From assembly GCA_016756835.1 (NCBI GenBank), contig JAESPE010000009.1, positions 1 through 55,827 on the forward strand: a DNA stretch of 55,827 nt. The letters run 5' to 3'. The DNA is from a gamma proteobacterium endosymbiont of Lamellibrachia anaximandri (GTDB lineage Bacteria; Pseudomonadota; Gammaproteobacteria; Chromatiales; Chromatiaceae). The position numbers were made by a program, and so were the translations under genes. The notes under the pieces are model-generated. The model was not told the DNA's origin, did not search any database, and saw only the letters and a program-made list of their open reading frames with translations. Shown here one piece after another: positions 9,506-24,831 of the stretch. How positions within the stretch are numbered: the stretch's first letter is position 1; each line of letters opens with the position of its first letter.

Positions 9506-9792
9506 AAGCTGCGTTTGAATTCCGGGAACGGAGCCAATCCGGTCCGCCAAGTGTTGTTTAACTATCCGCTATTGCATGGATTGATATCGACCCCTTGTGT
9601 GCGTTTGCGAAAACCAATGCCTATCCCCCAGTGCGACGCGTGCCCTCCAGGTATTCCGATTGTTTGGCGCTATACTGTATTAGAGAGGAGGATCACAACG
9701 CATAATTGATGTCTGGCGATGCGGCGTTTCCCTAAGCCTTACATTGCCTATCTGTGATCAAGCTGTAACCTCGTTGAAGATGGATCAAGGCC

Positions 9793-12700
9793 ATGCGCCT
9801 GGGTATTGATTTCGGTACTTGTTATTCCAGTTCCGCGTTTCTGTTGCGGGATGACCTTGTATTGGTCAAGGAACCCCTATCCCATACTTTTTCATTCCCA
9901 TCGAGTCTCTATATAACCCAGCAGGGCGAAGTCCTGGTTGGACAAGCAGCCGAAAACCAGCGTTTGCAAGCCTTGTCTCGCTACCGAAGCGGTTTCAAGC
10001 GCGATCTGGGTCAACAGGAGCCATTCCAGCTCGGCGAACGGGCAATGCCGCCGGAGGAACTGATCGCAGAGGTTCTGAAAAAGCTCAAAACTGAAGCGGA
10101 GCAGATGAACGGTGGGGCCGCTATCACCTCAGCGGTTTTGACGGTTCCAGCGATCTACGCCGATTACAAACGCGGACTGATGGCGCGCGCCGGAATGATG
10201 GCTGGGCTTGAGGTGGCTCTGTTGGATGAGCCGGTGGCAACAGCCATCTACCACACTTGGAAAGCGGGCGCAGAACAGCGGCCCTCCGGCGGAGAGGTCG
10301 TGCTGGTCTACGATCTTGGCGGAGGTACCTTCGACGCGGCTCTGGTACGCAAGACCGAATTCGGCTATGAACTGCTTGCCCTTCCTGTCGGTCTGGAACA
10401 GTGTGGCGGGATAGACCTCGACCGCATGATTTTCGAACATCTCAAGCGAAATTGCAGTCAGGAGTTGCGCACTCTGCTCGAACAGCGGGATGAAGATGCG
10501 ATGCGCCTGCGGGCCATGGTTACTGAATGGTGCAGGGGGCTCAAGCATCAACTGAGTGAAGCTCAGGAGGCGTTCGTATCTATCCCTGTTCCCGGTGCCA
10601 CAGCTATGGAGCCATTCAGTCTCGACAGGGACACCTTTAACGAGATGGTCGCTAGTTTGGCAAAGGAGACGGCCCAGCTCTGCCATAAGCTTGTCGAGAT
10701 GGCAGGAATTGGCTGGGAGTCGGTAGACTACCTGCTGCTGGTCGGAGGGTGCAGCCGGATACCCTACATCAAGGCGTTACTGGAAAACGAGTTTCAGTGC
10801 CGGGTTGAACGGGTGGACGACCCAGAACTGGCCATATCACGTGGTGCGGCGATCTATGCTGCTGAACTGGAGCGGCGAGACGATAATCCAGTCGTCTCAG
10901 CGAACGGTGGCTGGGGACTCTTCTCGAGCATCTCCGAGGCGATTCAAACGGTTAAGCCTGAAACCCGTATCCAGGTGGAACCCGGGATCTATAGGGAAAC
11001 CCTGATCATCGATAAACCGGTGGAAATTACCGGTGCGGGTGCGGTCGATCAGATCATTGTTGAATCGGAGACTGGCCCCTGTGTTTCGATGCAGACAGAG
11101 CGTGCAACTCTGAGAGGGCTTACCCTGCGCCGTGCTGAGTCCTCGCGAAAGCGCGAGAAATCGGAGAGCAGATCCCACGATGCGCATTGCGCCGTGTCGA
11201 TCTCACAAGGAAAACTCACAATGGTCGGATGCCGGGTGACATCTCAAGACGGCCCGTGCATCCTGATTAGCGGCGCACAAACCGATCCGCTGATCTGCAA
11301 GTGTCGGATCCATCATGGAAAGGAGGCAGGGATTGCGATTTCCGAAGGCGCTGCTGGAACGCTCGAGCATTGCAAAATCATTGAAAATACAGGTCCTGGA
11401 ATCTCTGTTTCTACCGGCGCCGCTCCCAAGATCGACCACTGCAATGTCCGCGGAGGAAAGAGTAACGGTATCCGTTTCAGTGACAATGGAATGGGATCGG
11501 TTGAGTATTGCGATATACGCGGAACTGAAAAACCAGGCGTTTCCGTCGATGAAGCGAGCGCTCCCACCATCTCCCACAGCAATATCCATTTTGGAAAGCA
11601 ATCCGGTATGTGGATCCAGTCCAGTGATGGCTGCATCGTAGAAGGGTGTGATATCCACGATAATCAGGAGGCCGGCTTGGTGATTGGGCCGGGGGGAAAC
11701 CCTGAAATCCGCTCATGCAGAATTCATGATGGTACGAAAGAGGGTGTGCTTACGGTCGGTGCTGGAAAAGGTATCTTCAAAAACTGCGATATTTTTTCCA
11801 ACACAGGGCCGGGTGCATCAGTTACCGGAGGTAGTGACCCAAGATTTATCCACTGCAGGATTTACGATGGAAAAGATTCCGGTGTGATTTTCGATGCCGA
11901 TGCAGTTGGCTCACTGGACCAATGTGAGATCCATTCCAACACCAATGCCAATGTCATAAGCAAAACAGGCGCGTCACCTGTTGTGCGGCGATGCACAATC
12001 CGTGGCGGGGAAATGACCGGGATATCTGTTACCGATAGTGGCAGGGGGCAGTTCATTGAATGCAACGTATTTGCCAATGGAAAATCCGGGGTCGAGATCA
12101 AGCGTAATGGCGATCCATTGTTCAGTGGATGTAAAATCCATGACGCTATAACCTCTGAAATTATCGTATCTGACAAGGGCTTGGGAACATTCGAGAATTG
12201 CGATATCTCGAAGGCGGATGACGGGGCTTTTTGGGATATCTCCTGCATGGAGATCACCGATGGTGCCAGTCCCTCGGTCAGGGGCTGTAAACTGCACGGA
12301 AACGCCGAACGTGGGTTCCTGATAAAAACCACTGCGAAGTGTTCGATTTCGGAGTGTGAGCTCTTCGATCTCCGGTGCGGACTATATATTTCAGGTAGGG
12401 CCAGCCCTGTAATCCGAAACTGCACCTTACGCGATAACGATGTCGGGATCATCTTCGATAATCAGGCCCAGGGAATGATTGAGCGTTGCGTCATCAAAGA
12501 GAACTCAGTTAGCGGAATTCAAATTACTGAAAGAGCGCAGCCACTGATACGCGTCTGCAAGATACATGAAAACCTCGGTGTTGGCGTTTTCGTGTCGGCA
12601 CAGGGGCGTACAACACTTGAGGACTGCACCATTGAAAAAAACACGGACGGATCCTGGGAGATCGAACCGCAAAGCGATGTAAGCATCGTTTGGTCGCATG

Positions 12701-12999
12701 ACCCATATCAAAAACTACGCGAGCTGTTGGCCAAGAGCGGTCGCAATGTCAAGGGCGCAAAACGCGAGACGTTCCGGTTGGTCCGCGAGATAACCGGCCA
12801 TCAATGCATCGACAAAAAGAGAAAGATGCGCGGTGTTCCCTATCAGTTGCTGCGCAACTTAAACGAGGTATGGGTACAAGCGGGGCACCGCCCGCTGTCT
12901 CAACAAGCGTGGTTCTCCGAAGACGGAGAGATCACGACGGTAGGCTGGTTCAGTGATGAAAGCTGGATGCTGCGAAGACTCCACGAACTGGGACTCTGA
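9793..12999 (+). CDS. Hsp70-type ATPase fused to a right-handed beta-helix
   Basis: Residues 1-355 form an actin-like Hsp70 ATPase domain: phosphate-1 GIDFGTCYSSSA, connect segment LDEPVATAIYH, phosphate-2 [13 protein letters not shown] (about 171-183) and adenosine loop LVGGCSRIPYIKALL. The Hsp70 substrate-binding domain is missing. In its place residues 376-420 form a beta-helix cap (SISEAIQTVKPETRIQVEPG). About 21 coils of 23 residues follow (roughly 470-960), each of the type xCxIxxNxxxGIxV. In 20 of the 21 coils the second position is Cys (first C480, last C945; one coil has Ser), so a stacked cysteine ladder is predicted. A globular tail of about 100 residues ends the protein. There is no signal peptide, so it is cytoplasmic. 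It is the first gene of a rightward cluster with two C39-like and two dynamin-like genes. The domain roles are known; the function of the fusion is not. Confidence 0.9.
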   Translation: MRLGIDFGTCYSSSAFLLRDDLVLVKEPLSHTFSFPSSLYITQQGEVLVGQAAENQRLQALSRYRSGFKRDLGQQEPFQLGERAMPPEELIAEVLKKLKTEAEQMNGGAAITSAVLTVPAIYADYKRGLMARAGMMAGLEVALLDEPVATAIYHTWKAGAEQRPSGGEVVLVYDLGGGTFDAALVRKTEFGYELLALPVGLEQCGGIDLDRMIFEHLKRNCSQELRTLLEQRDEDAMRLRAMVTEWCRGLKHQLSEAQEAFVSIPVPGATAMEPFSLDRDTFNEMVASLAKETAQLCHKLVEMAGIGWESVDYLLLVGGCSRIPYIKALLENEFQCRVERVDDPELAISRGAAIYAAELERRDDNPVVSANGGWGLFSSISEAIQTVKPETRIQVEPGIYRETLIIDKPVEITGAGAVDQIIVESETGPCVSMQTERATLRGLTLRRAESSRKREKSESRSHDAHCAVSISQGKLTMVGCRVTSQDGPCILISGAQTDPLICKCRIHHGKEAGIAISEGAAGTLEHCKIIENTGPGISVSTGAAPKIDHCNVRGGKSNGIRFSDNGMGSVEYCDIRGTEKPGVSVDEASAPTISHSNIHFGKQSGMWIQSSDGCIVEGCDIHDNQEAGLVIGPGGNPEIRSCRIHDGTKEGVLTVGAGKGIFKNCDIFSNTGPGASVTGGSDPRFIHCRIYDGKDSGVIFDADAVGSLDQCEIHSNTNANVISKTGASPVVRRCTIRGGEMTGISVTDSGRGQFIECNVFANGKSGVEIKRNGDPLFSGCKIHDAITSEIIVSDKGLGTFENCDISKADDGAFWDISCMEITDGASPSVRGCKLHGNAERGFLIKTTAKCSISECELFDLRCGLYISGRASPVIRNCTLRDNDVGIIFDNQAQGMIERCVIKENSVSGIQITERAQPLIRVCKIHENLGVGVFVSAQGRTTLEDCTIEKNTDGSWEIEPQSDVSIVWSHDPYQKLRELLAKSGRNVKGAKRETFRLVREITGHQCIDKKRKMRGVPYQLLRNLNEVWVQAGHRPLSQQAWFSEDGEITTVGWFSDESWMLRRLHELGL

Positions 13000-13058
13000 C
13001 TGTGCCGAAGACGCCGGGCACACCATGGGTAATCCCACGACCGACATGGGACTGAAGT

Positions 13059-14021
13059 ATGATCGATTTCGATGACTATCTTGAATCGCTCGATGATGAT
13101 TTCGAGGACACCCATGAAATTTCTGAACAGATGGAGAGTGAATATAGCGGGATCGAAGGTAACGAGTTTGCTGTTCCCGATATTCCAGACGGTGACGCAT
13201 CTGAGTTTAGTCGGGTCATGGCTGCCGAAACCATTGGGGAACCTATTAACACCCTGGATGCGAACTTCCCGACAGAGAGTATTACTTACGGAGAAGGATA
13301 CTGGGCCACTGAATTGTTCGATGCGAAATCATTAATCACCGCCAGCGTTCAGCCTGAAGATGTCATCGGTGATCCATGGGCTTATCTGCAGTACTGGCGA
13401 ATGCAACCCGAGCCAGGATTCGGTGCGACGACCTGTCAGAATTTCATTCTGTCCGAGCAACTTGCTGAGGGAATATCGGACGAACAGCTCAGCGCCATGG
13501 CGACTGATGCGGGATGGCAGGTTGTTGGAGCCGGGACCCCGATTGCCAGTATCGGCAATCTACTCGAATTCGGCGGCTTGGAGGTCGAATACGACCAATC
13601 CGCCACCCTCGATGACTTGGCCCAACAGTTGGCGGAAGGACGAACGGTTATCGCAGCCGTGAGTACAACCAAATTGTGGGCCCCGTCCGCCGATGATGAC
13701 AATCTGGGCGACTATCAAGGGATTCCCGGCCAGCAAGCCTTGGGTGCGGTTCAGGTCATCGGCATCGACCGGGCCGATGCGCAGAACCCGGTTGTCATAC
13801 TGAACGATCCGGGTTTGCAAAATGGTTCTGGCATCATGATTTCAGCGGAAGCTTTTATTGACGCATGGAACGAGAGCGGTGGTTACATGGTATCGGCGAC
13901 AGGTGCAGGTGCAGAATCCTCACCCCTGTTGGCGGGCGGCTACAACAAATGGGGATATTGGCAGTATGACGATGGTACTTGGGAGGAAGACTTCAAATGG
14001 GGTCATTATTACAACTATTGA
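13059..14021 (+). CDS. C39-like papain-fold protein, catalytic residues lost
   Basis: A 320-residue protein with an acidic N-terminal region (about 1-110), a C39-like papain-fold domain (about 110-280) and an aromatic tail (GYNKWGYWQYDDGTWEEDFK). Aligned with its neighbour at 14114, the oxyanion-type Gln is kept (Q116, in WRMQP), but the catalytic Cys position is Gly (G122) and the catalytic His position is Gly (G229, in ALGAVQVIGID). The ILNDPG motif with N249/D250 remains. C126 is four residues off register and cannot replace the nucleophile by simple alignment. It is therefore probably a pseudoprotease, binding or regulating its active paralogue. There is no signal peptide. It lies 59 bp after the Hsp70-beta-helix gene on the same strand. 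Confidence 0.7.
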   Translation: MIDFDDYLESLDDDFEDTHEISEQMESEYSGIEGNEFAVPDIPDGDASEFSRVMAAETIGEPINTLDANFPTESITYGEGYWATELFDAKSLITASVQPEDVIGDPWAYLQYWRMQPEPGFGATTCQNFILSEQLAEGISDEQLSAMATDAGWQVVGAGTPIASIGNLLEFGGLEVEYDQSATLDDLAQQLAEGRTVIAAVSTTKLWAPSADDDNLGDYQGIPGQQALGAVQVIGIDRADAQNPVVILNDPGLQNGSGIMISAEAFIDAWNESGGYMVSATGAGAESSPLLAGGYNKWGYWQYDDGTWEEDFKWGHYYNY

Positions 14022-14113
14022 CGAGCCAGACAGATTCACGAGTAAACAGTTGCGTGGAATGATCGAGTGGATCTGCGCAAGGTACAGACCAATATTCTGG
14101 TATGGAGAGGATG

Positions 14114-15079
14114 ATGAATGAGCTATTCGATCAGTTTGACGAATTCGAAGATGACCTCTGGGGCCCAATTGCTGACGATGCAATGGAACCCGTAGCTGAT
14201 TTATCGGTCGGTTCAGCCTATCAGGCTCCCGTTGAGTGGAATGGCATCTTTACCTCCCCAAGTGAAGAGAATAATGCGTATTTACCCGATGTTGAGCCTA
14301 TGGATCAGACTGATCTATCCTCAATCCAGTCACTTGACTCTGGCGAACTGCAGCCGGAAAACATGGCGGAGTCCTTCTTTATCGAGTATCCCGTTTTTGA
14401 TCCGGAGAACGCCGATCTGGAGCAAATCGTAGGCGATCCGGCCCAGGACATGGAGAACTGGCACATGCAGTCGACCCAGTCATCTTGCGCATTGGTCTCT
14501 CAGGAATTTATTCTGGATAAGGTGCTTGGGCGCGATGTCACCGAAGAGGAACTGACCAGTGTTGCAACTGATGCGGGTTGGTACACCCCCGGTGGAGGAA
14601 CGCCGATGAATGAGATGGGACGCATACTCGAACATTTCGAATGCCAGGTCGACTATGACATTAATTGCACCATGGATGATCTATCGGCAAAGCTTGAGCA
14701 GGGAGAATCGATTTTAGTCGCGTTGGACTCTGATGAAATATGGAACACAGGGGCCGATCTTGACGACATACTCTCCGAGTATTTCGGCATGCCTGGTCAG
14801 GATGCCAACCATGCGGTTCAGGTTATCGGTATCGATTACAGTGATCAGGGCAGCCCAAAGGTAATTCTGAATGATCCCGGTTCCCCAGATGGTAGTGGGG
14901 TCATGATTCCAGCCGATAAATTTATGGACGCCTGGGAAGACAGTAATCATTTCATGGTATCCAGTGGAGCATCCCAGGTGTCGGATCAGATGATCGGCAA
15001 CTACTATGATCGCTATGGAACCTGGTATTACGATGATGGTACGCCAGAGAGATATAACTGGGACACGGGCTATTACTGA
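14114..15079 (+). CDS. C39-like cysteine peptidase, intact catalytic residues
   Basis: A 321-residue paralogue of the preceding gene, from a tandem duplication. It has the same plan: acidic N-terminus, C39-like papain-fold domain and an aromatic C-terminal tail (YDRYGTWYYDDGTPERYNW). Here the catalytic set is complete: Gln119, Cys125 (six residues later, the papain spacing), His233 (in ANHAVQVIGID) and Asn253/Asp254 in ILNDPG. The start at 14114 is chosen because GGAG lies six bases upstream; 14102 and 14111 are also in frame. No leader peptide, membrane segment or ABC-transporter domain is present, so it is not a bacteriocin exporter of the usual C39 kind. The substrate is unknown; a neighbouring gene product is the natural guess. 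Confidence 0.75.
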   Translation: MNELFDQFDEFEDDLWGPIADDAMEPVADLSVGSAYQAPVEWNGIFTSPSEENNAYLPDVEPMDQTDLSSIQSLDSGELQPENMAESFFIEYPVFDPENADLEQIVGDPAQDMENWHMQSTQSSCALVSQEFILDKVLGRDVTEEELTSVATDAGWYTPGGGTPMNEMGRILEHFECQVDYDINCTMDDLSAKLEQGESILVALDSDEIWNTGADLDDILSEYFGMPGQDANHAVQVIGIDYSDQGSPKVILNDPGSPDGSGVMIPADKFMDAWEDSNHFMVSSGASQVSDQMIGNYYDRYGTWYYDDGTPERYNWDTGYY

Positions 15080-15132
15080 TTTGACCACCGTTTAAATTGC
15101 AATCATGAGCTTATTCAGCAGGAGAATCGATC

Positions 15133-15726
15133 ATGTCGCACTTAAGTGAACAGACTCAGGAAATTCATTCAAACAGGTCAACACAGCAGTCGGTCCGCAG
15201 GACATCCGGGCTACTGGAAAGACTCAGAAAAACCCCTTGGTTTCAGCAACTGATTCCTGCGGAAGCGGGCATAGGATGGCCGATCCCCTTGCGCAGGAAC
15301 GGAAAGGTCTATATACGAATTCCGTTTTTTGGATTCTCGCCCACGAGCGAGAAGGGAAAAACCGCCCTGTTTCCTCCTTTTGCCCTGGTCACACTGGATT
15401 GGGCCAGCTTGGTTCCAGTTGAATATGTAAACCTGCAGTTTCGAAATCCTTGGCCTGATGTGGAGTGGGGGAAGCCTGTCGGACATTTTCCTCACGAGTC
15501 AGTCGCCTCCCTTGCCGTTGGTGAATACAAAGCAAAGCGTAAGGAACTGCTTGAGCTATACAATGAGTTGTTCGACAAGCTGTCGCAGGGATCTGATTTC
15601 TCTGAAGAATGGAATCACAGATTTTCAACAGCACTAAATATACTGATGGAGCCGTCACTGGAGCCCTACTACAGGACACTCGGCAAAAAGTTTTTTGATC
15701 ACTATCTCCCGTCGAAAACGCGCTAA
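15133..15726 (+). CDS. Hypothetical protein of the Hsp70/dynamin cluster
   Basis: A 197-residue protein I do not recognise. A disordered, polar N-terminus (about 1-40) leads into a compact region with many aromatic and Pro residues (GWPIPLRRNGKVYIRIPFFG, ALFPPFALVTLDWASLVPVE), followed by a helical C-terminal half (EYKAKRKELLELYNELFDKL). There is no signal peptide or clear membrane helix. A strong Shine-Dalgarno AGGAG stands eight bases before the ATG. The gaps to both neighbours are short (53 and 63 bp) and all genes run right, so it belongs to the same presumed operon as the C39-like and dynamin-like genes. Confidence 0.75.
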   Translation: MSHLSEQTQEIHSNRSTQQSVRRTSGLLERLRKTPWFQQLIPAEAGIGWPIPLRRNGKVYIRIPFFGFSPTSEKGKTALFPPFALVTLDWASLVPVEYVNLQFRNPWPDVEWGKPVGHFPHESVASLAVGEYKAKRKELLELYNELFDKLSQGSDFSEEWNHRFSTALNILMEPSLEPYYRTLGKKFFDHYLPSKTR

Positions 15727-15789
15727 TAGTTAGGACAAACATTGTCCGCATTGAGGATTGAAAATAACCGAATTACGAGAGATCGTCCT

Positions 15790-17802
15790 ATGCTTGAGTT
15801 TGCACAATACAAAAACAGCACGCTGCTGTTGATTCGCAGCGCAATCGATCTGGCGCAATCCCAAGACCAGGATTCAATAGCCGGGGAGCTGGAAGAAGCA
15901 GCCAATCACCTGACAGAAGAGAAGATATACATCGTCGCATGCGGTGAGTTCAAGCAGGGTAAATCATCGTTCATCAATGCACTGCTCAATGAGTCCAGTC
16001 TGTTTCCTGTTGACATTGACATCACCACGAATCTGGTCTCCACCATCAGTTACGGCCCCCACGAAGTGATTGAGGTGTTGGCTGGTGAAACAGGGAATAT
16101 AATCTCCAAGGCGATCAGCCGCGACGAAATAGCAACATTCTCTACCGAACAGAAGAACAAGGACAATGTAAGAAATGTACGCTTGTTGACGATCATAAGT
16201 CCGAACGAATTGCTGAAAGACGGACTTGTGTTTGTGGACACGCCGGGAATTGGAGGTCTGAATGAGCGACATACGGAGGTGACTCAGACGTTTATCCCGA
16301 ATGCGGATGCTGCAATTTTCGTCAGCGATGCTCATGCACCACTAACCACCTCCGAGCTGAATTTTATCTCCAACATCGCGCACCACTGTCCCCATATTAT
16401 TCAGGTCGTGACAAAGATCGATTCTGTTCAGGACTATGTAAAGATCGTCGAAAGCAACCGCGCCAAACTGGCCGATATGCTGGGTGACGGCAAAGAGAAG
16501 ATCGCTGTTGTTCCGGTATCAAGTCTTGCAAAACTGGATTATCTTGAATCCCAGGATGAGGAGGATTTGGCGGACAGTAACTTTGATATTTTCCGCGAAC
16601 AGTTGTGGAGACTGATCGGCAATAACAGGGCAGCAACATTGACGCTGCATGCATTGAACAGACTATCGCTTGCCATGGCAAGACTGAACGAGCCGCTACA
16701 GGTTGAACTGAGTGCAATCGAGCAACGCAGTAAACAAAAACTCGAAGCGCTGGAACAGCAGTACCGTGACTCGAGGAGCCGGCTGCAGGAGATGTTGGAC
16801 AGCAACACCCAGTGGAGGACTATGTTGAGTGATGGACTTCAGGATATACGCATGGAGGTACTGGCGGAATTCCAAGACGGTTTCGTCGGGATAAATCGCC
16901 ATAACAACGCTAGCCTGGATGATGAAGCCCTGCTGCGAAATCCACAGCAGATCGTGGGTCTGCTTGAGTTGAACATCGACTCCCTCATGACGGATCTGTG
17001 GGCGTCGCTGAACAGGCGGGCGAGTGACCTGTTTGGACAGATGGAATCGGTCACTGGATTGAGCATGGGGGTAGTTGGCCTGAATAAAGAGGGCATCCTC
17101 AAGGCAGAAATCTCTGCAGATGAAATGGGAACGCAGGACTCCGATTGGTTCGCGAAATCCCGTTCCGTGGCGCGTGGCGGGATTTTCAATATCTATGCGG
17201 GCAGTGTTGTCGGCGGCGTGTTAGGCCTCGTGGTCGGCGGTGCCCTCGGCGCAGTGACTGGAGGTGCAGGGTTCCTCCCTGGCGTCGAACTCGGGCTTAT
17301 GGCGGGTGCTGCTCTGGGTGGAGTCGCCGGAATTGCGTCTGGTGCCAAGGAAGGATTGGCGCAGATCACAGAAAAGGACAGGAAAGCAAGAAAGATCCAG
17401 ATCGTAAAGATCATCAAGCCTTATCTCGAAGACAGCCAACGGTTGTGCCAAAAGAAGCTTACCGAGGCGACGTCAAAACTCGAACGCATTATGCGGGATG
17501 AACTCGTCAATCAACTCAGAGAGGAGAAGCAACGATGCGAGCGCACGCTCGCTTCGATTTCCGGCGGTGGCAAACTGTCGCGGAAAGCGAGCGAGGAGAG
17601 ATCGCTCACGATCAAGCGGGAAATCCAAAGAATTACCCGGATTAGCACAGCAGCACGGGAATCGACGAGAACCATCCTATCTAAAATCGCAGCCGAAAGT
17701 ACCCACACGGGTCGGGGTGAGGAGATGAGTCGCATCGATAATCAAGCAACGCATGATCAGAAGCCGGAAATTGCTGATAAGGGCGACTGGGCTGACGGAT
17801 AG
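15790..17802 (+). CDS. Dynamin-like GTPase with glycine-zipper membrane segment
   Basis: A 670-residue bacterial dynamin-like protein. GTPase motifs are G1 GEFKQGKSSFINALL (K58, S59), the switch TTNLVST, G3 DTPGIGG and G4 TKID. Coiled-coil stalk segments follow (about 300-400 and 560-640). Residues about 465-520 are a Gly/Ala-rich hydrophobic stretch (GGVLGLVVGGALGAVTGG and more), typical of membrane-inserting paddles in this family. The family remodels or fuses membranes in a GTP-dependent way. I use ATG 15790; an in-frame TTG 48 bases upstream is less likely. It is followed almost directly by a second dynamin-like gene, and such tandem pairs often form hetero-oligomers. Confidence 0.9.
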   Translation: MLEFAQYKNSTLLLIRSAIDLAQSQDQDSIAGELEEAANHLTEEKIYIVACGEFKQGKSSFINALLNESSLFPVDIDITTNLVSTISYGPHEVIEVLAGETGNIISKAISRDEIATFSTEQKNKDNVRNVRLLTIISPNELLKDGLVFVDTPGIGGLNERHTEVTQTFIPNADAAIFVSDAHAPLTTSELNFISNIAHHCPHIIQVVTKIDSVQDYVKIVESNRAKLADMLGDGKEKIAVVPVSSLAKLDYLESQDEEDLADSNFDIFREQLWRLIGNNRAATLTLHALNRLSLAMARLNEPLQVELSAIEQRSKQKLEALEQQYRDSRSRLQEMLDSNTQWRTMLSDGLQDIRMEVLAEFQDGFVGINRHNNASLDDEALLRNPQQIVGLLELNIDSLMTDLWASLNRRASDLFGQMESVTGLSMGVVGLNKEGILKAEISADEMGTQDSDWFAKSRSVARGGIFNIYAGSVVGGVLGLVVGGALGAVTGGAGFLPGVELGLMAGAALGGVAGIASGAKEGLAQITEKDRKARKIQIVKIIKPYLEDSQRLCQKKLTEATSKLERIMRDELVNQLREEKQRCERTLASISGGGKLSRKASEERSLTIKREIQRITRISTAARESTRTILSKIAAESTHTGRGEEMSRIDNQATHDQKPEIADKGDWADG

Positions 17803-17803
17803 C

Positions 17804-19369
17804 GTGAATATCCAGCAAAATGCCAGAGAACTGTTCGAGTCAGTTCTTGCCCTGACGCAAGATCACCCCTCCCTACAGGAACTGCATTGTGAACTGCAGT
17901 CTCATTACCAGCGGCTTCACCAGCCCATGCAGGTTGCCATTGTCGGGAAAATCAAGGCGGGTAAATCGACCATGATGAATGCGCTGCTCGGTGAGCAGAT
18001 GGTGGCCACTGGCGCGGAGGAACTTACCTTCAATGTCAACTGGCTGAGATATGCTTCGGAACCGTTTCTGCTGGTCCACTACAAGGATGACCGTCCAGCC
18101 GAGGAGAAGTCCCTCGAAGAACTGGAATCGCTGACCCGACGGCGGGGTTTCGATATGGAACAATTGAAACAGATCAAGTATGTCGAAGTCGGTTACCCAA
18201 ACGATATGCTGAAAAACTTCAACCTTATCGATACCCCTGGTCTTGGGTCTGCCTATCTGGATGACAGCCGCAATACCCTTGATTTTCTCGGTCTGGATGC
18301 ACACAAGCTCACTGAGCGAACCGAGGCTGAGGCCTCAGGTGAGGACGCTATCCTCTATCTGTTCAGCCAGAGCATAGGCCAGTCGGACAAAAGCATTCTT
18401 GAAGAGTTTCAGGGTGCATCCATAGGAGAGGCGTCGCCGATAAACACCATCGGTGTGCTTACACGAATTGACGCCTATTGGCCGACAGAGGATAACCCGC
18501 TGGCCGGAGGACAAAATGTCATTAACCGGCTCCGCTCAGAGCATAATGAGGTCAAGGGGGTTTTTTATAATATTTTTCCGGTTTCCGGGCTGTTGGCGTT
18601 TGGTGCAAAGACACTTACCAGGGAAGAACATGGGACGCTTCTGCAATTGGCCAGGTTGCCGCAAGCGCGTTTTCAGCGACTGATCCGGAACGTCAATCGC
18701 TTTGCTCAACGTGAATACGACGACATCGACGTCTCCCCACAACGTCGGCAATCACTTCTGATACGGCTGGGGCAATTTGGTATAGGGGAGGCATATTCAG
18801 CAATATCTGACGGCATTGGTGAAAAGGATGCTTTGTCTCAGGCGTTGGTCAGCCGGAGTGGTCTGCCCCAACTCATTGATTGTGTCATGTCTCATTTTGG
18901 CAACCGTGCTTTTTTGATCAAGCTGAGTACCGGATTGCACAAGACCGCTGCGAGTTGTTTTGCTGCAGAGAGAAGACTCTCCGGGCTGGAGCGCGGAATC
19001 GTCTCGCAGATCAGGGCAAAGTTCGAGGCCTTTGAAGCACAGCAACATGAATTCACCGAATTACGAATACTACGCAGCTATTACGATGGTGGATTGGAGA
19101 TTACCCCGGATGAAGCGCAACACCTGCTGCAGATAACCGGCGAGTATGGCGCGTCTATAGGCGAAAGACTGGGGGCTGACCAGCAAGCGGACCCCGCGAC
19201 TCTCCTTGCTGCCTGCCTTGAGCGAAAGAGGTATTGGTACCAAAGGGCGAATGACGTAATGGGTGCCGGCAGGGCTACGATTTCAGCTGCAAATGCACTC
19301 GCACGATCCTACGAGAGGATCGAGTACAATCTTAGTAGAGGCCCCGGATCTGCAGATCGCCAAAATTAA
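17804..19369 (+). CDS. Second dynamin-like GTPase, no membrane segment
   Basis: A dynamin-family GTPase of about 521 residues. G1 is VGKIKAGKSTMMNALLG (K54), followed by a threonine switch in ATGAEELTFNVNW, G3 DTPGLGS and G4 TRID. The second half is helical with no glycine zipper, unlike its neighbour, so it would be the soluble partner of a pair. The start is uncertain. A GTG at 17804, one base after the preceding stop, puts the homologous part at the N-terminus. An ATG at 17753 overlaps the preceding gene by 50 bp and lacks a Shine-Dalgarno. It is the last gene of the rightward cluster; the next gene starts 271 bp away. Confidence 0.85.
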   Translation: MNIQQNARELFESVLALTQDHPSLQELHCELQSHYQRLHQPMQVAIVGKIKAGKSTMMNALLGEQMVATGAEELTFNVNWLRYASEPFLLVHYKDDRPAEEKSLEELESLTRRRGFDMEQLKQIKYVEVGYPNDMLKNFNLIDTPGLGSAYLDDSRNTLDFLGLDAHKLTERTEAEASGEDAILYLFSQSIGQSDKSILEEFQGASIGEASPINTIGVLTRIDAYWPTEDNPLAGGQNVINRLRSEHNEVKGVFYNIFPVSGLLAFGAKTLTREEHGTLLQLARLPQARFQRLIRNVNRFAQREYDDIDVSPQRRQSLLIRLGQFGIGEAYSAISDGIGEKDALSQALVSRSGLPQLIDCVMSHFGNRAFLIKLSTGLHKTAASCFAAERRLSGLERGIVSQIRAKFEAFEAQQHEFTELRILRSYYDGGLEITPDEAQHLLQITGEYGASIGERLGADQQADPATLLAACLERKRYWYQRANDVMGAGRATISAANALARSYERIEYNLSRGPGSADRQN

Positions 19370-19401
19370 ATCGGTCAGCCTGATCGCCGGGAGAACGCTT
19401 A

Positions 19402-19443
19402 TTAATGATCCAAGCGAAAACCGATCTTCACGGTGACCTGCAA
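19402..19443 (-). pseudogene. Dodecin C-terminal fragment
   Basis: On the minus strand this encodes QVTVKIGFRLDH and a stop. The first eleven residues are identical to those near the C-terminus of the intact dodecin at 24622-24831 (QVTVKIGFRLDD). At DNA level 29 of 32 bases match between 19409-19440 and 24629-24660. Upstream of this short piece the similarity stops. It is therefore a remnant of a second dodecin gene or the scar of a duplication or insertion. Confidence 0.7.
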
Positions 19444-19640
19444 TGGGTATCCGCATAGTGTTAACAGGCACTAGGAGCATCCGGCGATTAGTAAGTATGC
19501 ATCGAGAGTGGTTATAATTTATTCAGATGGATAATCACACATGCTGACGGATCAGATTTCCCTATCAGCAACTGGTGGCGTCCCATCAAACGGGGAACAA
19601 TACCGGCTTTCCCCAAATGCCTGATCATTGGGAGATGGAC

Positions 19641-22600
19641 ATGGGCAGTGTGAAAAAACGTTTTCATCCGCACCTGCAGAGCCTTGCAAGGATCTGCATC
19701 GTCCTCTGTCTTTCCCTGGGGTATCTCACCCCGACATACTCTGAAACCGCTATTCAAGACGGCGCCATCCCCATCGACCAGTTGCGTGCTGCTCAGCAAA
19801 AGGAATTGGATGCCCTGCGTGAAGGTTATCGAAATCAGGCCAATAAACCCGGCGCCGATCAGGATGCACTCTTTGACCGTTACCGATCGGATCGAAAACG
19901 GCTCCAGGACAAATACAACCGGCTGGATACCCGTAACCAGCGCGTAGATGAGATGATCAATCGGACCGGCGCCGCCCAGACCGGGAGCAACACCAAGGAT
20001 GTGCGGGCCGATGTCGATACTGCGGGCAACACGGACCAGATCGATGAGCGGATGGTCGAGGAGTTGAAACGCCGAGGTCACGATGTCGATACCAGCAATC
20101 CCAGCAAGGTGGTCGATCATACGGATGACCATGTCTACTGGCGCAAGGAGACCGCTGCGGGGAACAAGGCCAAGGAGACCGACTTTGACTCCTTCAAGAC
20201 CCCCGGCGGGCGCGATGCCACCGGCAACCTCGGGGAGGTGAAGGATGCACGGGGTGAAGGGATCGACCACTCATCCAAATATCACCACGGGCGCGCGGAC
20301 GGTGACCTGAAGACCATGGGCAAGTCGGTGTCGAAGATGGACAAGGCGTCGGACCGGGTCAGGTATGACGAGAGCAAAGGCGCCTTTGTCAAAGACCAGG
20401 GGGAGTTCAGACGTTCGCTGGCAGAGCATCCCGATCCCGAGATGAGGGCGCTGGCTAAGATCGACCCGAAAACCGGCAAATCCCAGGCCGATACGCTGGT
20501 CGACCAGGCAAAGGCATTTCAGAAATATGGTGATCCGGTGACCGCAGGCATCGCTGATCTGGGCGATTCACCGGAGGTTCAGGCGCAAAAGGTGAAAGAG
20601 TGGCAAAAGAGATCCAATAAGTATATGGATGCAGCTGAGCAGAGGGCGAATCGTCGTGGGGATGTCCGGGACAAGGTGAGGGAAAACTTCGAGCAGTCCT
20701 ATCGCAACGCAAACAGTGCCGATCCGGCGGAAAAGGAGTGGAACAGAAACGCTGCCGATGACATCGATAACAATCGGCGTCGTGTACGAGAGGGCAACGA
20801 GGTCGGCGATAGATTTCTCAGTGGCGAAAAAGGCCGCAGGACCTCGGATGACACATACAGCGGCGGTTGGAAAGACCGGGGCGAGTCCGTCAAGGGCGCG
20901 ATTCCTGATGATGAGCTGCAGCGGCGGCTAAACGCGGCGGAACAGAGTGCCAACGCGAAGAAGCAGGGTGGGATCGACAGTCCGGATGGCGGTGCCCCGA
21001 AAAGGGGAATCTCAAGTGACCCTGATCTGCCTGCGAGCGGAATAGGCGCAAGAAGAGGGCAGGGCATTCCAGATCCGGATCTTCCCTCTGCCGGTAGGCG
21101 GCCCTCCTGGGCAGATGGCCCGACTGACGTGGTGGTTGTGGGCAAGAGAGGCAAGGCCAAGGTGACCGCCATCGATGGCCGACTCCCCAAGTCCAAGCCA
21201 AACATCAAAGGTGCTGTCGGAGCTGGCGTGGAAGCTGGCCTGCAGATGGGTGAAGCCACGGCGCGAAAGCTGGGTGAGGTGCTGGATCGCTCCGACCAGA
21301 CCGTCACCGGGAAGGACATGGCGGACATCGTCAAAGAGGGCTCGGGATATGAGCCGATGCGCAAGGCGGTGGAAGATACCCGGTTGCGCCAGCGCATCAA
21401 AAAGATCGAGCTGGAAAACAAGATTCGTGATCTGGAGAAGAAGCCGGGGTCGCTGACTGCTGCGGAACAGGGTGAACTGGGTCGGTTGAAACAGCAGGCC
21501 GCCAATACCGACACGACCACCTCGAATTTGCAGGATCTGGGCCAGCAGATGCTGATCGATCCCAACAAGGAGATTATCGGTCGTCGGATGGGTGAGATGG
21601 AGGCGCAGGCCAAGGCGGAGGGACGCAAGTCGGAGTTTCTGCGGGATGGCCTACCGGCCATGGGGAAGGCCGGGGCCGAAGTGGTTGGAAACGCTGTCGG
21701 AATCGGGGCGGCGGCCAATATGGCAGCCGAGATGGAGACCTTCAACGAGCGCTCCGACTGGTCGGCACAGAAAAACGCCATGGTGCAACACCTTAACGAC
21801 AAAGCGCGCTGGGCGGACAAGCGAAACCGCAAGGCGACGGCGGAGTTGGAAGGCATCCTCTTTTCAGGCAACGCAGACAGCCCGGAGAATCAACAGCGCG
21901 TCGAGCAACTGCTGGGTGAGATCGCGGCAAACCAGGCGGAGATGGACAAAATCGTCGCCATCGCTAACCGCAACCTGAGTGAAGTCGATCCGAAAAAGCT
22001 CGCTACGATCCGGGGCTTGGCTGGTAGCCAACCCGATCCCGATGCCATGCGAGACTATGCCCGGCAGATGTCCGAAGGTGCAAGGCAAAAGGCGGAAGAG
22101 GAAGAGTCCTGGCTCGACAAGGAGAAAAAACGGGAGCAGGCCCGCCGTGCCGAGGAGGAAAAGCGGAGGAAGGTAGAGGAGGAGAAGGCCCGTCTGGCCG
22201 AGCAGAATAAGCAGAAAGAGACAGAGGCCGATGACGGATGGGGCAGCGCCGAGAGCGGTTATGGTGAAGAGGCGCCAAAGACGGCAGCCTCCGGCGAAGA
22301 GGCACTCACTGACAAGATCACCGAGATCATGCTCACCGAGCCGGACCCTGAACGTCGAAAGGAACTCATCCGACAGGCCATCCGGAAACATGCCGGTGGT
22401 GGGCAACAGGGTGGTGCAGATGACGGTGCATGGGGCGACGGCGGATACGAACAGGCCAGCCCCGCGGAGCAGTATGTCAGTGCCATCAGGGCCGCCAATG
22501 CCGATGGCGATTTCCAGCGGGCAATGCGTCTGGCCAACCAGGCCCGAGACGCAGACCCGGAGCATGCATGGCTGAATCAGAACTACGGTACCATTCAGCT

Positions 22601-23285
22601 GCTTGCGGAACGTGATAAACGCTATCGGGAAGCTATCCAACACGCGATCAGCAATCTGGAGCGCGGCAATGTCGATGAGAGCATTGATGCGCTAAAGAGG
22701 GCAATGCAGAACGCCTCGACCCGGTTGGGACAGGATCAGGATGTCCGCACCCTGCTGGAGGACGCCAAACGGATCGCCCAAATGGAGCGCGAGGAGGCCA
22801 TAGAGCGGGCGCGTCGGGAAGGGGAGAGGAGTGCCTACGAGCGGGACCGCGAACGGGCGCGCTATCAACAGCGCCGGGAAGAGAACAGACGTTCAGCTCA
22901 GGCCTTGAGGGGAGCCCTGATGGGTGTCCTGGGGGCGGTCAGTCAGGCCAAGGCCGCGCGTAGCACCAGTACAACAGTAAATCCGGGTGCCTATTCCGAC
23001 GACATCATCCAGCGCAAGGTGCGGGAGAACCAACGCAAGTATGGCGATTTGATGAAAAAGTACGAACAGAGCCATCGCCAAAATCTCCATACTGCGCCCA
23101 AGACACCCAGACGGCAACCCGGCAACAACGCAAATGCGGGGTGGGCAACCAAGTCGTCACAGCCCGCAGCCAAGACCAAGTCTTCGGGGTTCGATAAATG
23201 GGAAGGCGATTTCAGCAGTCAATGCGATGGCAAGGCCCCGGGTATCTACGAGTTTGGAGAATGTTTCGAACATACCGATTTTTAA
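19641..23285 (+). CDS. Very large exported coiled-coil protein, unknown function
   Basis: A 1214-residue protein I do not recognise. The start at 19641 is chosen because GGGAG is six bases upstream and a Sec signal peptide follows (VKKRFHPHLQSLAR, hydrophobic ICIVLCLSLGYLT, cleavage near TYS-ET). The mature part is very hydrophilic. It has charged and disordered stretches, long coiled coils (about 585-640 and 790-880, the latter rich in Glu, Lys, Arg and Ala), a Gly/Asp-rich spacer (QQGGADDGAWGDGG) and a TPR-like helical segment (AIRAANADGDFQRAMRLANQ onward). The C-terminus holds two cysteines (SSQCDGKAPGIYEFGECFEH), perhaps disulfide-bonded. Its high-charge composition resembles a periplasmic scaffold or an exported effector. 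The neighbouring lipoprotein gene is convergent. Confidence 0.85.
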   Translation: MGSVKKRFHPHLQSLARICIVLCLSLGYLTPTYSETAIQDGAIPIDQLRAAQQKELDALREGYRNQANKPGADQDALFDRYRSDRKRLQDKYNRLDTRNQRVDEMINRTGAAQTGSNTKDVRADVDTAGNTDQIDERMVEELKRRGHDVDTSNPSKVVDHTDDHVYWRKETAAGNKAKETDFDSFKTPGGRDATGNLGEVKDARGEGIDHSSKYHHGRADGDLKTMGKSVSKMDKASDRVRYDESKGAFVKDQGEFRRSLAEHPDPEMRALAKIDPKTGKSQADTLVDQAKAFQKYGDPVTAGIADLGDSPEVQAQKVKEWQKRSNKYMDAAEQRANRRGDVRDKVRENFEQSYRNANSADPAEKEWNRNAADDIDNNRRRVREGNEVGDRFLSGEKGRRTSDDTYSGGWKDRGESVKGAIPDDELQRRLNAAEQSANAKKQGGIDSPDGGAPKRGISSDPDLPASGIGARRGQGIPDPDLPSAGRRPSWADGPTDVVVVGKRGKAKVTAIDGRLPKSKPNIKGAVGAGVEAGLQMGEATARKLGEVLDRSDQTVTGKDMADIVKEGSGYEPMRKAVEDTRLRQRIKKIELENKIRDLEKKPGSLTAAEQGELGRLKQQAANTDTTTSNLQDLGQQMLIDPNKEIIGRRMGEMEAQAKAEGRKSEFLRDGLPAMGKAGAEVVGNAVGIGAAANMAAEMETFNERSDWSAQKNAMVQHLNDKARWADKRNRKATAELEGILFSGNADSPENQQRVEQLLGEIAANQAEMDKIVAIANRNLSEVDPKKLATIRGLAGSQPDPDAMRDYARQMSEGARQKAEEEESWLDKEKKREQARRAEEEKRRKVEEEKARLAEQNKQKETEADDGWGSAESGYGEEAPKTAASGEEALTDKITEIMLTEPDPERRKELIRQAIRKHAGGGQQGGADDGAWGDGGYEQASPAEQYVSAIRAANADGDFQRAMRLANQARDADPEHAWLNQNYGTIQLLAERDKRYREAIQHAISNLERGNVDESIDALKRAMQNASTRLGQDQDVRTLLEDAKRIAQMEREEAIERARREGERSAYERDRERARYQQRREENRRSAQALRGALMGVLGAVSQAKAARSTSTTVNPGAYSDDIIQRKVRENQRKYGDLMKKYEQSHRQNLHTAPKTPRRQPGNNANAGWATKSSQPAAKTKSSGFDKWEGDFSSQCDGKAPGIYEFGECFEHTDF

Positions 23286-24621: not shown

Positions 24622-24831
24622 TCAGTCGTCCAGGCGAAAGCCGATCTTCACGGTTACCTGCCAGTGGGCCACCTTGCCGTCCTGGATATGGCCACGGGTT
24701 TCGACTACCTCGAACCAGTTCATACTATGGACTGACTTACCGGCGCGTTTAATGGCATTGCGGATTGCCGCGTCGCTGCTTTTGGTGGAAGAACCCACCA
24801 CTTCGATCTTTTTGTAGACATGGTCACTCAT
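24622..24831 (-). CDS. Dodecin (flavin-binding dodecamer)
   Basis: A 69-residue dodecin. These proteins assemble into 12-mer hollow spheres that store or buffer flavins in the cytoplasm. The sequence is full length and typical: VYKKIEVVGSSTKSSDAAIR, AIKRAGKSVHSMNWFEVVE with the Trp that stacks on flavin, TRGHIQDGKVAHWQV and a C-terminal TVKIGFRLDD. It is downstream of mutS on the same strand. A fragment of a second copy lies 5.2 kb away at 19402-19443. Confidence 0.95.
   Translation of the reverse strand: MSDHVYKKIEVVGSSTKSSDAAIRNAIKRAGKSVHSMNWFEVVETRGHIQDGKVAHWQVTVKIGFRLDD

Follow-up and report, generated by a model that had tools for sequence, protein, structure and literature searches.

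Bacterial dynamins are usually paired in operons (PMC6104087; this and the other papers cited here are referred to for the excerpts available of each). The iniBAC operon of mycobacteria has three genes, iniB, iniA and iniC; IniB is rich in glycine, and IniA, which binds negatively charged lipids, carries out GTP-dependent membrane fission in vitro, with a suggested role in drug tolerance (PMC6715688). The operon of the Campylobacter pair DLP1/DLP2 putatively includes an HcpA-like gene, and membrane repair is the role speculated for this pair (PMC6104087). In Bacillus subtilis, a dynamin named DynA delays phage lysis and protects the population from phage at the membrane (PMC8844932). Kaur et al. 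2020 described conflict systems built on TRAFAC-clade GTPases with GAP1; the GTPases (DO-GTPases) are often present in two copies, Hsp70 occurs in some themes, peptidase themes are also described, and the systems are nearly completely absent from cyanobacteria (PMC7159879). Here we describe a 9.97 kb island with six genes (9512-19482, forward strand) found in contig JAESPE010000009.1 of a gammaproteobacterial endosymbiont of Lamellibrachia anaximandri; the window is the whole stretch of 55,827 nucleotides that was analysed. The island encodes an Hsp70-beta-helix protein, two C39-like peptidases (C39a and C39b), a 197-aa protein of unknown type and two dynamin-like GTPases, here named DynA and DynB.

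Comparison of gene neighbourhoods supports the view that dynamin pairs of this kind travel with an Hsp70 nucleotide-binding domain (NBD) lacking the substrate-binding domain (SBD) and bearing a varying C-terminal module, often together with a C39-like protease. We tentatively favour the reading that the six genes form one module, in which an ATPase switch and a protease would control an IniA/IniC-like dynamin pair, and the pair would act on the membrane during stress or conflict.

The island shares with iniBAC the two tandem dynamin-like GTPases and the similarity of DynA to IniA (residues 35-588), but the genes upstream of DynA are those of the 197-aa protein and the C39 pair, no glycine-rich IniB was recognised in the island, and the available iniBAC text (PMC6715688) contains no Hsp70, DnaK, C39 or peptidase. 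The Campylobacter pair, like the dynamins behind the LeoA and LeoBC models of PADLOC, is comparable in consisting of paired bacterial dynamins; however, Hsp70 appears in the accessible part of PMC6104087 only within a reference title, with no mention there of a C39 or beta-helix partner. With the DO-GTPase/GAP1 systems the island has in common GTPases, an Hsp70 domain without a peptide-binding domain and variable linked modules (PMC7159879, in part), whereas Pfam gave no DO-GTPase or GAP1 match among the six proteins of the window and the words "dynamin" and "C39" are absent from that text. The B. subtilis protein is likewise a bacterial dynamin acting against phage at the membrane, but the available text of PMC8844932 contains no Hsp70, DnaK, peptidase or protease. 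A literature search, which covered few subscription papers, returned no description of a C39-dynamin-Hsp70 operon. The island can thus be regarded as known parts and a known type of dynamin pair in an association undescribed in the searchable literature.

Composition of the six-gene island

The limits of the island were set by blastn of the window flanks against two loci (L052 and L053). All six open reading frames (ORFs), from 9793 to 19369, are open and co-directional on the forward strand; the gaps between the ORFs as listed are 59, 80, 53 and 15 bp, followed by an overlap between DynA and DynB. This agrees with the first-pass annotation of the stretch, which had reported six rightward genes with short gaps. 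Its domain descriptions also agree with the sequence, namely an Hsp70 ATPase carrying a beta-solenoid, one putatively dead and one putatively live C39-like peptidase, and two GTPases only one of which has a candidate membrane-inserting stretch. A promoter and terminator scan found sites no more numerous than in shuffled sequences.

The first gene (9793-12999, forward strand) encodes a protein of 1068 aa with Pfam matches to HSP70 (E-value 3.4e-48) and Beta_helix (3.6e-75). The NBD (9793-10872) is 47% identical to an Anabaena Hsp70 and contains phosphate and adenosine motifs. Since the DnaK model aligned only at 5-375 of its 625 positions, only the Hsp70 ATPase domain is recognised, with the beta-helix in place of the SBD; no SBD was detected by the DnaK model, Pfam or the predicted structure. 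The beta-helix (10933-12672) has rungs of mostly 23 residues. Structure prediction for residues 377-1068 gave a long right-handed beta-helix (mean predicted local distance difference test score, pLDDT, 78.9) and after it a helical stretch predicted with less confidence, and Foldseek with the beta-helix model retrieved generic beta-helix proteins only (pertactin, alginate lyases, tailspikes). The C-terminal helical stretch (12673-12999) is weakly GUN4-like: the fragment alone scored an E-value of 0.0014 and 19.3 bits, below the cut-off of 29.2, and the copy in G005, a genome of the same genus, 0.051.

The C39a and C39b genes (13059-14021 and 14102-15079, both forward) had no Pfam match and a chance-level match, respectively. 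Their assignment comes from homologues: over 203 residues, C39b shares 55% identity with a C39 family peptidase of Anabaena that passes the Peptidase_C39_2 cut-off. In alignments, the cysteine and histidine of C39b correspond to those common to the other full-length members, while C39a has glycine at both catalytic positions, as do its copies in three further genomes of the genus, G004, G005 and G003 (the last read by eye), suggesting a putative live and a putative dead peptidase. A tree joined the symbiont C39a and C39b with support of 92/90, short of the starred level of the tool, and the C39a branch was longer (1.42 vs 0.56), so that C39a looks like a faster-evolving local duplicate; this tree, which did not include a G557 fragment, is unsure in its deeper parts owing to long branches. 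C39 peptidases of bacteriocin exporters are fused to an ABC transporter, but C39a and C39b are free-standing genes with no transporter match.

The gene for the 197-aa protein (15133-15726, forward) is 55% identical to the gene at the corresponding place in Anabaena and Dolichospermum. The protein had no Pfam or NCBIfam match, and its fold prediction (pLDDT 47.4) gave no usable model. A profile search produced no convincing match to a solved structure (best E-value 0.64) and none in viral contigs. Three loci were found in genome contigs, a spread that may be underestimated because the search used two short peptide patterns; at two of them, in endosymbionts of the tubeworms L. anaximandri and Escarpia spicata, the relatives are 96-98% identical.

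Both GTPases matched Dynamin_N in Pfam (DynA 3.6e-24, DynB 4.4e-14). DynA (15790-17802, forward) carries the G1, G3 and G4 motifs, and residues 35-588 of its 686-residue ORF matched mycobacterial IniA (6j72) with an E-value of 9.4e-34. A hydrophobic glycine-rich stretch, VVGGVLGLVVGGALGAVTG, occupies residues 489-507. The best solved match of DynB (17804-19369, forward) is 5owv chain C (2e-14). The hydrophobicity peak is 1.93 in DynA and 1.28 in DynB, and the stretch in DynB is not of the glycine-rich kind; comparison supports DynA as the likely membrane-binding partner and DynB as the soluble one. PADLOC placed DynA with LeoA (8.4e-22) and DynB with LeoA (3.8e-9) and LeoBC (1.2e-6), matches that general dynamin similarity could yield. 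Concerning gene starts, the ATG at 15790 is a likelier start for DynA than 15742, where the longest ORF begins, since in G003 a stop codon lies a short way before the corresponding ATG; for DynB, the GTG at 17804, directly after the DynA stop codon (17800-17802), is likelier than 17753, the start of its longest ORF.

Relatives of the module in other lineages

Defined as an Hsp70 NBD, a C39-like protein and two dynamins as neighbours, the module was found in the window, in Anabaena and in Rhodococcus, and it occurs in at least three bacterial phyla. A plasmid of Anabaena sp. 90 encodes, in one direction, a helix-turn-helix protein, an Hsp70 (47% identity), four further genes, a C39 (55%), the unknown protein (55%), DynA (41%) and DynB (47%), and Dolichospermum UHCC 0259 has the same gene order. 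One of the four extra genes between Hsp70 and C39 passes the DO-GTPase1 and DO-GTPase2 cut-offs, and no GAP1 match was found among the Anabaena proteins scanned; this operon may join the dynamin and DO-GTPase themes. Rhodococcus plasmids encode DynA, DynB, an Hsp70 with an anchor-like segment, a hypothetical gene and a C39, the last of which lies some kilobases off, beyond other genes, in one of the three regions read. The first-pass annotation had regarded these domain types as not normally occurring together; this has to be corrected, as the combination recurs with homologous neighbours in other phyla.

The association was also found on plasmids at large. Among the 72,556 records of PLSDB, 27 contained a C39b relative, and relatives of DynA, DynB and Hsp70 were present in the same region in all of them. 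All 27 also appear among the 40 listed of 43 records with a DynA relative, and in the set of 39 that have a DynB relative; the Hsp70 search list included 26 of them, the 27th being Anabaena, where the Hsp70 was seen at the locus. Printed positions placed C39 and DynA within ~12 kb in each record. By our judgement these represent about four independent cases, because 12 of the 27 are Prescottella plasmids that are much alike.

In cyanobacteria, a C39 match was found in 9 of 386 genomes, and six of the nine loci adjoin dynamins. One of the six (G432) is the homologous operon, and another with a weak C39 match (G557) contains a dynamin together with fragments of an Hsp70 and of a C39. The other four (L079, L080, L081 and L082) resemble the island in that dynamin-like genes directly adjoin a C39-like peptidase from the same family, but differ in having three dynamin-like ORFs and no relative of the Hsp70 or the 197-aa protein on the stretches read; apparently they represent a second C39-dynamin arrangement. 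Of 398 Pseudomonadota genomes, the C39 profile matched two: the one that contains the window, and another in which the hit is borderline (7.7e-4) and has no module around it. With the DynB profile, 1 of 319 cyanobacterial and 1 of 329 Pseudomonadota genomes were matched, both known carriers, which is a weak negative given the strict threshold (1e-20) and the four candidates per genome scored in the rows shown. A Dolichospermum Hsp70 query matched 58 of 234 cyanobacterial genomes at 1e-35; besides its own genome, a single match was close (G545, 49%), with no dynamin adjoining on the stretch read, and by score and frame length the remainder look like ordinary DnaK. At another locus (L120, 164-2317), a relative of the module Hsp70, 48% identical to that of Anabaena, is followed by two small paralogous proteins, presumably YbjN-like, with no dynamin on the stretch read.

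The part that follows the Hsp70 NBD beside the dynamin pair varies between lineages. It is a beta-helix in the window, a hydrophobic anchor-like segment plus a further stretch in Rhodococcus (read by eye) and a short C-terminal tail in Anabaena; in G022, a genome of the window's own family with DynA and a frameshifted DynB, two Hsp70 genes end in Sel1 repeats and an Lcl_C domain. Variation of this sort between lineages is what would be expected if the protein were a switch whose recognition part can be exchanged.

Two further observations concern these loci. At L049 (923-7933), two Hsp70 ATPase domains that closely resemble each other stand side by side, one with a Sel1 and the other with an Lcl_C end; in the adjoining dynamin pair, the second gene is divided between two reading frames. 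HcpA belongs to the Sel1-repeat proteins, and the Sel1 end of one L049 Hsp70 can be compared with the HcpA-like gene of the Campylobacter operon. In the Anabaena and Dolichospermum operon (L059, 3152-9236; L064, 1237-7333), the Hsp70 and the proteins h1, h2 and h4 end in NDWF, DNWF, FNWF and PEWF, respectively; h1 and h4 are paralogues, and the other proteins with a Trp-Phe end have no blastp match to them. These ends look like a common C-terminal recognition tag; a Trp-Phe end was absent from the protein ends read in the window and in Rhodococcus.

Presence, gene breakage and probable exchange among symbiont genomes

The set was present in four of the six genomes of the genus. In the two genomes without it, G002 and G001, the flanking DUF3549 gene and the gene of a 1236-aa protein are adjacent, with ~1 and ~6 bases, respectively, in place of 9512-19482. 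All four carriers keep open frames for C39b, the 197-aa protein, DynA and DynB. Two of them have a broken Hsp70 gene: in G005 it is interrupted by an element with two ORFs, putatively IS3-like from the reading of these ORFs, and in G003 an in-frame deletion corresponding to ~9838-13255 of the window removes most of it and the start of C39a.

Comparison of the window with G003 or G005 gave ratios of nonsynonymous to synonymous divergence (dN/dS) of 0.09-0.35 for C39a, C39b, the 197-aa protein, DynA and DynB, consistent with an island mostly under purifying selection. Together with the adjoining homologues in other phyla, these ratios argue that the gene association is not due to chance. Higher ratios were obtained for the beta-helix against G004 (0.71, from very few changes) and for the C-terminal piece of Hsp70 against G005 (0.43). 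Between the window and G005, the beta-helix diverges more (dN 0.088, dS 0.317) than the ATPase part (dN 0.016, dS 0.164); past residue 368 the two Hsp70 proteins have ~119 differences, 85 of them within residues 645-966.

Against G004, the dS of the island genes (0.007-0.102) is below that of two upstream genes (0.174 and 0.304), suggesting exchange between symbiont lineages, perhaps with part of the downstream flank. The island thus appears to have been exchanged between these lineages.

The 1236-aa gene downstream of the island (19575-23285) has weak TPR matches only in Pfam and is 78% identical to its counterpart in G005, 93% in G003, 98% in G004 and ~90% in G001 and G002, the G005 copy being a divergent allele. 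It was considered as a member of the module and dropped, because G001 and G002 carry it without the island. A 32-base direct repeat with three mismatches joins the right end of the island (19410-19441) to a site 5.2 kb downstream (24630-24661), where shuffled sequences led us to expect none; it may mark the mode of island insertion. Ten other genes of the window, scanned with Pfam, are mostly housekeeping, with one transposase and one gene of the tyrosine integrase family.

Possible function of the module

The first-pass annotation had proposed sensing by the solenoid chaperone, proteolytic control by the C39 pair and membrane remodelling by the GTPases, a scheme made more plausible by the varying Hsp70 module and the relation of DynA to IniA. 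The Hsp70 ATPase could act as the switch, and its fused C-terminal module, here the beta-helix, would recognise a cue, for instance envelope damage or a component of an invader. The stronger divergence of the beta-helix than of the ATPase part between the window and G005 counts in favour of this reading. Upon sensing, the live C39b would cut an inhibitory partner or one of the dynamins, with the dead C39a possibly serving as decoy or adaptor, and the freed dynamins would assemble on the inner membrane, which they would remodel, seal or sever. In nature the module would serve survival of envelope stress or a response against phage or competitors. We lean to conflict because of the plasmid carriage, the presence or absence at one site, the signs of exchange and the DO-GTPase neighbour in the Anabaena operon, features that conflict genes often show, and because of the Hsp70 breakage; the relation of DynA to IniA keeps envelope repair alive.

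That the six genes form one unit is well supported: a cyanobacterium keeps their relative order, and relatives of the Hsp70, C39, DynA and DynB occur together in every C39b-bearing plasmid record. The test proposed in the first-pass annotation, whether homologues are scattered, did not refute it; they proved to be neighbours, though three of the nine cyanobacterial C39 loci lack a dynamin in the part read. Several results weigh against the functional scheme. The dynamins can be kept without an intact Hsp70 gene, as this gene is broken in G005 and G003 while the rest persists. Relatives of DynA, DynB and Hsp70 occur with no C39 in the part read in Gordonia sp. 135 and in Nonomuraea (L132, unannotated and read by tblastn only), which shows that such sets can do without the protease. 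The divergence of the beta-helix could be explained by recombination or relaxed constraint, because dS is also raised there and the G005 gene is broken, and the exchanged stretch may extend past the island, since the downstream 1236-aa gene has a dS of 0.108 against G004. PADLOC on the module gave only the dynamin matches of LeoA and LeoBC type and two others with E-values above 0.01, and no defence gene was recognised among the ten other window genes in the Pfam scan (PADLOC was not run on those ten).

One alternative, envelope maintenance of the iniBAC kind with no immune role, is somewhat unlikely: the dynamins would repair or stabilise the inner membrane when the cell envelope is stressed, the Hsp70 would disassemble dynamin oligomers, as Hsc70 disassembles clathrin coats, and the C39 would trim one component. 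This would fit the purifying selection on most parts, the closeness of DynA to IniA, with its fission activity and suggested part in drug tolerance (PMC6715688), and the membrane repair speculated for the Campylobacter pair (PMC6104087); however, a housekeeping repair system would not normally be so patchily distributed, in island-like form and on plasmids, the differing Hsp70 tails suggest that varied targets are recognised, and no glycine-rich IniB was recognised among the island genes. We hold as rather doubtful the more specific idea of an immune or conflict machine in which the SBD-less Hsp70 is a STAND-like switch, interchangeable modules (beta-helix, Sel1, Lcl_C or anchored) recognise the threat, and the live/dead C39 pair gates membrane-acting dynamins of IniA/IniC type.

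That the island is a variant of the GTPase-centred, NTP-dependent conflict systems of Kaur et al. 2020, with dynamins replacing DO-GTPases, is unlikely. The Anabaena protein above both DO-GTPase cut-offs and the GTPase, Hsp70 and peptidase themes described in the available part of PMC7159879 speak for it, but neither a DO-GTPase nor GAP1 is found among the six window proteins, and dynamins and C39 do not figure in that text. It is very improbable that the island is a decaying acquisition under loss and now functionless in the symbionts, as the interrupted Hsp70 of G005, the mostly deleted one of G003 and the absence from G001 and G002 might suggest, since DynA, DynB, C39b and the 197-aa protein have open frames in every carrier, with dN/dS of 0.09-0.35.

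Under the reading that we tentatively favour, a dynamin pair under the control of an ATPase switch and a protease, the module would tie an IniA-type pair to these partners in three phyla and name partners that can be tested. If the conflict role is true, dynamin effectors and an Hsp70-based sensor would be added to bacterial immunity; if the stress role is true, the module would give a hint at how IniA-like proteins are regulated.

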